From positions 1 through 61,005 of the forward strand of contig CANHKV010000006.1 of assembly GCA_947461445.1 (NCBI GenBank): a stretch of DNA of 61,005 nt, written 5' to 3'. The notes beneath the pieces are model-generated. The model made no database searches. It was not told where the DNA came from and saw nothing but the letters and a program-made list of their open reading frames with translations. Positions 57,104-60,145 of the stretch are shown piece by piece; positions within the stretch are counted from its first letter, which is position 1, and the number at the start of each line of letters is the position of its first letter. The position numbers and the translations under genes were made by a program. The DNA comes from Holosporales bacterium. Lineage in GTDB: Bacteria > Pseudomonadota > Alphaproteobacteria > Holosporales > Holosporaceae.

Positions 57104-57156
57104 GAATAGATCTCCTTTAGCAGGTTAAGTACTTGCGGGTCGGCATTGCCAGTTCT

Positions 57157-57542
57157 TTTGGCAGTGTTTTTGATCGAGTGCTAATCCATCTTCTGTCTTT
57201 TGGCACTATTTTTGATCGACTGCCAACCGCTTCACAGTCCATTGGCACTGTTTTTAGTCGACTGCTAATCCATCTTCTGTCTTTTGGCAGTGTTTTTGAT
57301 CGAGTGCTAACCGCTTCACACCCCATTGGCAGTGTTTTTAGTCGACTGCCAACCGCTTCACAGTCCATTGGCACTGTTTTTAGTCGACTGCTAATCCATC
57401 TTCTGTCTTTTGGCAGTGTTTTTGATCGAGTGCTAACCGCTTCACACCCCATTGGCAGTGTTTTTGATCGAGTGCTAACCCATCTTCTGTCTTTTGGCAC
57501 TATTTTTGGTCGACTGCTAACCGCTTCACACCCCATTGGCAC
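57157..57542. repeat. 42-bp tandem repeat array between glmU and the GNAT gene
   Basis: Nine consecutive 42-bp units from 57157 to about 57534, plus a partial tenth that reaches the glmU stop. Units start with (T/A)TTGGCA(G/C)T, contain GATCGAGTGC or GTCGACTGC, and end in one of two versions: CATCTTCTGTCT or CGCTTCACA(GT/CC)CC. Units 3-4 equal units 6-7, a higher-order repeat. 42 is divisible by three, so both strands stay open (14-residue unit on the minus strand such as LPKDRRWISTRSKT), but no independent sign of translation is seen. Confidence 0.95.
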
Positions 57543-58910
57543 TTATTCAGGTAAATTGCCAACAGGTGCCTCTGGTGCCCCTTTTTTAACACGATTCAGG
57601 TGCCTGCTATTGGCGCGCAAAGGGATGGCCTTTTGCTCTGCACGCGACAGAGCCAACGTTTCACATTCAACGGATTTTGTAATGACACTGCCCGCCCCAA
57701 TGGTGGCATTTTTCCCAACATGAATAGGCGCAATAAAGATAGAATGAGACCCCACAAACACGCCGTCATCCAACTGGGTGATTTTCTTAGAGTGCCCATC
57801 ATAATTGCAAGTAATCACTCCGGCCCCGATATTGACATGATCCCCAATCACCGCATCACCAATATAACTGAGGTGTTTGGCCTGACTGTATGCCCCAAAG
57901 GTAGCATTTTTTGTTTCCATAAAATTACCAATCTGACCAAAAGGCCCCAAAACCGTACCTGCTCTGATGCGCGCAAAAGGCCCAATCGATGCATTATGCT
58001 GAATAGAACAGTGTTCCAACACAGAATTTGAGTAAATGGTGACGTCAGAATCCAGAACCACACCGGGCCCAAAACAAACCATGGGGTGCACCACAACGCC
58101 CGGGGAAACCACGGTATCATAAGAGAAAAATGTGGTTTCTGGTGAAATCAAATAGGCCCCCTGATCAAAGGCTTTGGCACGCAATCGCTCTTGCATGGCG
58201 CGCTCTGCCTGCATTAATTCTTGCCTGGTATTGACCCCCATAAAATGGGTCCATGGCCCTTGGCAATAGGTCGCACGCTGTGCCAAACGCACCAAATCCG
58301 TTAAATACAACTCTCCTGTTACGGGGCTGGGCACCAATTGGGGAATGGCTTTTTGTGCAAATTCTCCATCCATACACATGATGCCGGTATGGCATAAATC
58401 AATGGATTTTTCAGCATCTGTGGCATCTTTGCTTTCGACAATGCGGATCAAGCGGTCATTTTGAACGCACAATCGGCCATATCCCTCGGCACAAGGCGGA
58501 CGCATTCCAATGACACTTAATGGTGCATTATGGCTGCTGGCCAGCAAAATAGACAGGTCAGAGCTCGTCAGCAAAGGCATATCGCCTAACAACACAATGA
58601 TCTTTTTTGATGCCATGTGCGGGTCTTTGTTCATGATTTCATCCAGGGCCAATGCAAAGGCATGCCCTGTACCTCTGGGGTCTTGTTGCACGATTGTGTG
58701 CACGTTTTCCGCAGCCAAAGCATCATTTACGTCTGGAGAAACCACCATATACACTGAATTTTTCCCATATTCATGGGCAATATCCAGCACACCACACACC
58801 ATGGGCCTGCCTGCAACGGGAAAAAGTACTTTAGAGGTTTTCAACCCCATACGCGATGATTTTCCAGCGGCCAGAATGACCACAATGATCTCTTTTGAAA
58901 ACGGGTTCAC
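57543..58910 (-). CDS. glmU: Bifunctional UDP-N-acetylglucosamine pyrophosphorylase / glucosamine-1-phosphate acetyltransferase GlmU
   Basis: GlmU makes UDP-GlcNAc for peptidoglycan and LPS. The 455-residue product has the uridyltransferase start VVILAAGKSSRMGLKTSKVL, QQDPRGTGHA and GDMPLL, then a left-handed beta-helix acetyltransferase half (ARIRAGTVLG, GNFMETKNATFG, NIGAGVITCNYDGHSKKIT, GSVITKSVE). Length is standard. The stop codon lies in the first partial unit of a 42-bp repeat array. Confidence 0.96.
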   Translation of the reverse strand: MNPFSKEIIVVILAAGKSSRMGLKTSKVLFPVAGRPMVCGVLDIAHEYGKNSVYMVVSPDVNDALAAENVHTIVQQDPRGTGHAFALALDEIMNKDPHMASKKIIVLLGDMPLLTSSDLSILLASSHNAPLSVIGMRPPCAEGYGRLCVQNDRLIRIVESKDATDAEKSIDLCHTGIMCMDGEFAQKAIPQLVPSPVTGELYLTDLVRLAQRATYCQGPWTHFMGVNTRQELMQAERAMQERLRAKAFDQGAYLISPETTFFSYDTVVSPGVVVHPMVCFGPGVVLDSDVTIYSNSVLEHCSIQHNASIGPFARIRAGTVLGPFGQIGNFMETKNATFGAYSQAKHLSYIGDAVIGDHVNIGAGVITCNYDGHSKKITQLDDGVFVGSHSIFIAPIHVGKNATIGAGSVITKSVECETLALSRAEQKAIPLRANSRHLNRVKKGAPEAPVGNLPE

Positions 58911-59012
58911 AGTACAGTCTTTTCAGGATTTTAACGTCTATTTTACGTCCATTTTTGCTAAAAAACTATGGTTTTATCGGCGATTTTTGTGTCATCAGTC
59001 ATGGCATAAAAG

Positions 59013-59208
59013 TTATCCACACCCCTGTGGATAAACCTGTGGATAACCCTGTGGATAAAATGTGGATAACTCAAAAGTTGTCCACACCGTTAGGGGGGGG
59101 CTGTGGATAAAATGTGGATAACTTTAGCCCCCCCTGTGGATAACTTTTTCCATACTGGGTAAGGCTTTTTCGACCTTTTTTCAAAGTTATCCACAGATTT
59201 TATCCACT
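59013..59208. other. Dense DnaA-box cluster, candidate chromosomal origin oriC
   Basis: Nine perfect TTATCCACA boxes lie in 196 bp: plus strand at 59013 and 59187; minus strand at 59026, 59038, 59050, 59061, 59102, 59113 and 59135. Two one-mismatch boxes lie at 59078 and 59200 (plus). Several minus-strand boxes are spaced 11-12 bp apart, about one helical turn. AT-rich DNA flanks the cluster on both sides (58918-59010 and 59209-59239). It lies between divergent glmU (-) and fabI (+). Such density is characteristic of oriC; a DnaA-titrating locus is the alternative. Confidence 0.82.
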
Positions 59209-59239
59209 ACAACTATTAACAACTCCTTATAGATATATT

Positions 59240-60145
59240 ATGATGGGCTTTACAAAATCGAAACGAAGTGACATGAGCAAGCATGCGTATCCTGACCACG
59301 ATCAAACTCCTTTTGGTTTGATGACTGGAAAACGAGGAATTATTTTGGGTGTAGCCAACAACCATTCGTTGGCTTGGGGCATTGCAGAACATTTATCCAG
59401 AAATGGCGCAGAAATTGCCTTTACGTACCCCTCTGAAATCATGAAAAAACGGGTGGAACCGTTGGCAAAATCTATTGGTTCAGAGTTGATTTTTCCCTGT
59501 GATGTCAGCCAAGAAGGGGATGTCGAACGCACCTTCCAGGCATTAAAACAGCATTGGCCAACGATTGATTTTGTGGTGCATTCTATTTCCTTTTCTGATA
59601 AAAACGAATTGCGTGGTGATTTCCTGGATTTATCACGGGAAAACTTTTTAAACACCATGCTGGTTTCTTGCTATTCCTTTATTGACGTGGCCAAACATGC
59701 CAAACCCATGATGGGTTCAGGCGCCAGCATCGTTACGTTGAGTTATTACGGTGCAGAAAAAGTGATTCCCCACTATAACGCCATGGCACTGGCCAAATCA
59801 GCGCTGGAAACATCGGTGCAATATGCCGCAGAGGATTTAGGAAAACAGGGCATCAGAGTCAATACCCTGTCTTGTGGTCCCATCAAAACTTTAGCCGCAT
59901 CCGGCATTGGTGATTTTCATTACATCCTGCAGTGGAACCAAAGCAACGCCCCATTACGACGCAGCATCACCCTGGATGATGTAGGAAAATCAGCCCTGTA
60001 TATCCTTAGCGATTTATCCAGCGGCGTAACGGGTGAAACCCTGCATGTGGATGCGGGATATCACGTCGTGGGCATGAAGGCCAAGGATGCCAAGGACATC
60101 GTTCTGGCGCCAAAGGATGGGGCGGATGCTGTGGTAAGCGGTTAG
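59240..60145 (+). CDS. fabI: Enoyl-ACP reductase FabI
   Basis: FabI performs the last reduction of fatty-acid elongation. The 301-residue short-chain-dehydrogenase product has LMTGKRGIILGVANNHSLAW (NAD-binding, G-V-A-N), DVSQEGDV, VHSISFSD and the catalytic Y-x6-K as YNAMALAK. SYYGAEKVIPHYN carries the second tyrosine. GPIKTLAASGI follows. ATG 59240 is the first start; ATG 59273 would suit family length better. The C-terminal 20 residues are extra and Lys/Asp-rich. Confidence 0.95.
   Translation: MMGFTKSKRSDMSKHAYPDHDQTPFGLMTGKRGIILGVANNHSLAWGIAEHLSRNGAEIAFTYPSEIMKKRVEPLAKSIGSELIFPCDVSQEGDVERTFQALKQHWPTIDFVVHSISFSDKNELRGDFLDLSRENFLNTMLVSCYSFIDVAKHAKPMMGSGASIVTLSYYGAEKVIPHYNAMALAKSALETSVQYAAEDLGKQGIRVNTLSCGPIKTLAASGIGDFHYILQWNQSNAPLRRSITLDDVGKSALYILSDLSSGVTGETLHVDAGYHVVGMKAKDAKDIVLAPKDGADAVVSG

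Follow-up and report, generated by a model that had tools for sequence, protein, structure and literature searches.

We propose that a Holosporales-related alphaproteobacterium with a reduced genome very probably has its chromosomal replication origin (oriC) in the cluster of DnaA boxes between glmU and fabI, a reading based on sequence, conservation and GC skew. The host is probably protist-associated. The cluster lies at positions 59013–59208 of the window, i.e. the whole stretch of 61,005 nucleotides analysed here, which comprises all of contig C6 in a genome (G000) of 835,192 bases, 18 contigs and 97.8% completeness. The initial annotation had flagged it as a candidate replication origin, and this proposal is supported by the skew in the relative G002, by conservation, by a module resembling an unwinding element and by a counterpart in a sister genus. 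We infer that DnaA binding, melting and initiation take place at the cluster. DnaA would load on the array at 59013–59143, and a filament of DnaA-ATP starting at the box pair (59187/59200) would grow along one strand of the sequence CTA-CAA-CTA-TTA, thereby melting the unstable DNA at about 59210–59240, where the helicase would be loaded.

The DnaA-box cluster

The features of the region are as follows.

57543–58910 (-): glmU, divergent flank of the cluster
59013–59143: DnaA-box array, eight exact TTATCCACA boxes plus TTGTCCACA (59078, +); kept in two same-genus genomes with gain and loss of boxes
59013 (+), 59026 (-), 59038 (-), 59050 (-), 59061 (-), 59102 (-), 59113 (-), 59135 (-), 59187 (+): exact TTATCCACA boxes
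59078 (+), 59200 (+): one-mismatch boxes, TTGTCCACA and TTATCCACT, respectively
59094–59134: perfect G-run/C-run inverted repeat, GGGGGGGCT ... AGCCCCCCC, arms of 9 bp, 23 nt apart, two boxes inside
59144–59182: spacer between array and unwinding element, 80% invariant within the genus
59187–59208 (+): tandem DnaA-box pair of the putative unwinding element, TTATCCACA (59187–59195) and TTATCCACT (59200–59208); counterpart in G004 TTATGCACA-GTTTGCACA
59207–59218 (+): DnaA-trio-like repeat CTA CAA CTA TTA (other strand 3'-GAT GTT GAT AAT-5'), starting 11 nt past the exact box
59210–59240: predicted DNA unwinding element, among the least stable 1.5–2% of 50-bp windows in the window
59216–59244 (+): sigma-70-like promoter match TTAACA-17-TATGAT, possibly that of fabI, overlying the unwinding element; one found, 1.2 expected by chance
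59240 (or later)–60145 (+): fabI, flanking gene

The nine exact and two near-match boxes initially reported were all found in place, and the helical-turn spacing noted for several of them is seen in start-to-start distances of 13, 12, 12, 11, 17, 24, 11, 22, 52 and 13, where values of 11–13 are near one turn. The entire genome of 835,192 bases holds 31 exact boxes, nine of them in this intergenic cluster, which is unique in the genome: the other 22 are scattered, with the tightest pair 76 bp apart on contig C7, and a second dense cluster of exact boxes was not found. The density of these 22 boxes predicts 0.005 boxes per 200 bp, and the occurrence of at least nine per 200 bp by chance would be about 7e-21 genome-wide according to a crude Poisson estimate, in keeping with the original impression of a density far above chance. 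The array at 59013–59143 may represent the DnaA loading platform.

The closest relatives by FabI are found in VGCF01000021.1 and CAMCZV010000001.1 (93–95% identical). In both same-genus genomes, G001 and G002, the box cluster is present at the same glmU-fabI site, and the gene order matches that of G002 over nearly the whole window. The array itself differs among these genomes by gain and loss of boxes, G002 having a 43-column insertion with extra boxes, and the C-rich arm of the inverted repeat at 59094–59134 reads ACCCCACCC in both relatives, giving an imperfect match there. Every position of a 50-bp block on the fabI side (59183–59232) is the same in all three genomes, whereas the share of invariant positions is 84.7% in the array, 75.5% in the spacer towards glmU and 61.5% among third codon positions of fabI. 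The block contains the boxes at 59187 and 59200, the CTA-CAA-CTA-TTA repeat and the onset of the least stable DNA in the vicinity.

An unwinding-type module on the fabI side

In the layout described for origin unwinding elements, a better box lies upstream of a poorer second one, spacer lengths peak at 10–13 bp, and the trios read 3'-GAT-5' (PMC8287927), which corresponds to 5'-CTA-3' on the complementary strand (PMC8235120). The tandem boxes, spacer and repeat found here follow this layout, which is common to two genera, and three of the four units conform to the DnaA-trio rule; the second unit (CAA) is devoid of the conserved middle A. The repeat is adjoined by strongly unstable DNA, which extends over about 59190–59240 and falls among the least stable 1.5–2% of 50-bp windows. 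The flanking AT-rich DNA noted initially is confirmed for the fabI side only, with just a milder stretch of instability (58930–58980) towards glmU. The box pair is located upstream of the sigma-70-like promoter match, and since this match overlaps the invariant block, part of the block's conservation may serve fabI expression.

GC skew in a same-genus relative

The window contig extends 1.8 kb beyond the cluster, too short a flank for a switch to appear in the skew of this genome. Skew was examined at the orthologous cluster of G002, and was computed on sampled stretches of the relatives' contigs. On the 220-kb contig C1 of G002, negative skew prevails over about 190 kb and positive skew follows beyond the cluster: 30 of 38 5-kb bins are negative to its left and all five are positive to its right, with mean skews of -0.060 and +0.070, respectively. 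The change-point plateau (183.2–195.2 kb) encloses the cluster (191.69–191.92 kb); the low point at 183.9 kb is off the exact cluster position, the plateau being 12 kb wide. The other seven contigs of G002, which were nearly completely sampled, showed one sign overall and no comparable sustained switch; on C2 the skew is noisy, with a few isolated negative 10-kb bins. A skew minimum elsewhere had been named at the outset as the finding that would speak against an origin, as had a second, denser cluster. The only lasting change from negative to positive found in G002 occurs at the cluster, which places the orthologous cluster at the GC-skew minimum. No comparable second cluster was detected in the sampled sequence of G002 or, for exact boxes, in the present genome: G002 revealed no other site where E. 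coli-consensus boxes exceed three per 250 bp, its sole other box group being a small one of three boxes at C1:99168.

A counterpart in a sister genus

G004 belongs to another genus (FabI 72% identical), and here fabI is adjoined by an array of TTATGCACA copies. Fifteen copies run to the end of contig C4 (50934–51165) and 11 copies open contig C28 (5–123), followed by a gph-like gene, which suggests that the two contig ends join, with the assembly breaking within an array of at least 26 copies, mostly at 11-bp pitch. Every box of this array has G at position 5 in place of C. The associated module, TTATGCACA-GTTTGCACA-GGCC-CTA-CAA-CTA-CTA, has the same orientation relative to fabI as in this genome, and its trio repeat CTA CAA CTA CTA begins 13 nt past the box.

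The helix-turn-helix of G004 DnaA reads GGRNHTT versus GGRDHTT, corresponding to D433N in E. coli numbering; D is retained in the nine remaining genomes of the order. In E. coli, residue D433 makes contact with box position 7, and the consensus has N at position 5 (PMC8235120, PMC7561715). Because of this mismatch between contacted and altered position, a causal link between D433N and the box change in G004 is unproven, and we did not uphold the substitution as its cause. It is a rather doubtful, if conceivable, scenario that the family's origin moved beside fabI with the loss of hemE and that DnaA and its boxes diverged together, as the at least 26 uniform TTATGCACA copies and the GGRNHTT motif of G004 might suggest; G004 would then provide a case of an initiator and its origin altered together in nature. 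Taken as a series, the window, G002 and G004 point to arrays that grow and homogenise around a fixed unwinding module, possibly with a matching change in DnaA.

Gene setting and comparison with known origins

The cluster is flanked by divergent genes as initially described, with glmU on the minus and fabI on the plus strand. The true start of fabI may lie 3' of 59240, since FabI homology begins at residue 26, and a weak holA match follows the gene up to the contig end. Overlapping ORFs encoding short peptide repeats (e.g. TASHPIGSVFDR / MGCEAVSTRSKTLP) were seen at 57117–57723, reflecting a tandem repeat at and beyond the glmU 3' end. The dnaA gene is encoded in the genome, away from the cluster (on contig C3 here and 172 kb away in G002).

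The classical neighbour of the origin in alphaproteobacteria is hemE, which flanks the oriC of the Caulobacter/Rickettsia type. In line with the earlier remark that glmU-fabI is not a position often cited for oriC, hemE was not found in any of the eight family genomes; G008 alone yielded it, with none found in G000–G007 or G009, and a hemE-flanked origin was rejected on this basis. The present locus resembles the Caulobacter/Rickettsia type in being a single chromosomal DnaA-dependent candidate origin away from dnaA in an alphaproteobacterial host, but differs in its glmU/fabI flanks and its many strong TTATCCACA boxes. A further difference is that CtrA-type TTAA-N7-TTAA motifs are no commoner than chance across the window (51 matches versus 47 expected); CtrA sites were rejected on these grounds, and the match at 59216 is uninformative alone. 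A single OmpR-type regulator is encoded in this genome. A parS site near the origin, as in parS/ParB-linked origin regions, was not seen either: G000–G002 yielded no parS-like site with up to two mismatches.

In E. coli oriC, TTATCCACA boxes adjoin an unstable unwinding element. The same neighbourhood is found here, with the difference that the boxes are uniform, strong and mostly in one orientation. A close parallel in layout is B. subtilis oriC with its DnaA-box#6/#7 and DnaA-trios (PMC8287927), which shares the tandem pair, an 11-nt spacer, CTA-type repeats and unstable DNA, all in one direction. Unlike in B. subtilis, one of the four trio units is without the middle A, the GGCC spacer is missing (it is present in G004), and dnaA is not adjacent. 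The type of origin is ordinary, and it is the glmU/fabI setting for which no report was found in the open-access literature. Nor did we find there a description of any Holosporales origin, although such absence argues only weakly for novelty. None of the few papers found on these reduced, protist-associated alphaproteobacteria describes an origin, and the locus provides the group with a concrete candidate that permits genome orientation and growth estimates from read-coverage ratios.

Alternative explanations

Many strong boxes can also be used for titration, and dnaA lies elsewhere in both this genome and G002, as would suit a datA- or DARS-like locus that titrates or recycles DnaA rather than initiating replication. 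We nevertheless regard such a locus as quite improbable in view of the skew switch in G002, the conserved module of unwinding type and the failure to find other candidate origin clusters in this genome or in the sampled sequence of G002. An integrated plasmid or phage origin, brought to mind by the iteron-like 11-bp tandem array of G004, is hardly credible: the flanking genes are housekeeping genes in an order common to G002 over the window, the repeats are canonical DnaA boxes, and a replication-initiator gene was not seen among the immediate neighbours.

The divergent genes and the promoter-like sequence at 59216–59244 would also be compatible with a promoter under DnaA control that serves fabI and/or glmU. 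This we consider very unlikely as the sole function, for eleven boxes go far beyond what such a promoter needs, as had been recognised from the box density in the initial annotation; moreover, the skew switches at the cluster in G002, and the far end of the array in G004 appears to face another gene (the gph-like gene on C28). The proposed origin may nonetheless have a dual role and include the fabI promoter.

Distribution in the order

A three-box pattern was found in four of ten genomes of the order, representing two genera, and the combined box and trio pattern occurs once each in this genome, G001, G002 and G004, and in two of 57 other genomes. In G009, of the same order, the skew minimum (608.0 kb) is only 2.6 kb from fabI and has no box cluster; likewise, the regions adjoining fabI in G005–G008 are without one. 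In G003, of the same family, the minimum is near 791 kb, again with no box cluster, while fabI is at 75 kb, about 270 kb off on the circular map. Since the minima of G003 and G009 are both without a box cluster, the fabI-linked cluster is shown for two genera only. Genes that, by sequence recognition, we take to be parA-, parB- and maf-like lie up to about 20 kb from the G003 minimum, and others resembling rnpA and yidC up to about 30 kb from it. The minimum region (C1, about 772–820 kb) also contains a parS-like site at 782674, and the origin of G003 looks differently built.

Outside the origin candidate, a small box pair on contig C7 of this genome (35770–35854) is conserved, with three boxes at C1:99168–99264 in G002. 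Both groups precede, at a distance of a few hundred bases, genes that, judged by sequence, are presumably rsmH-ftsL-ftsI-like, which suggests that DnaA may possibly control this division cluster.
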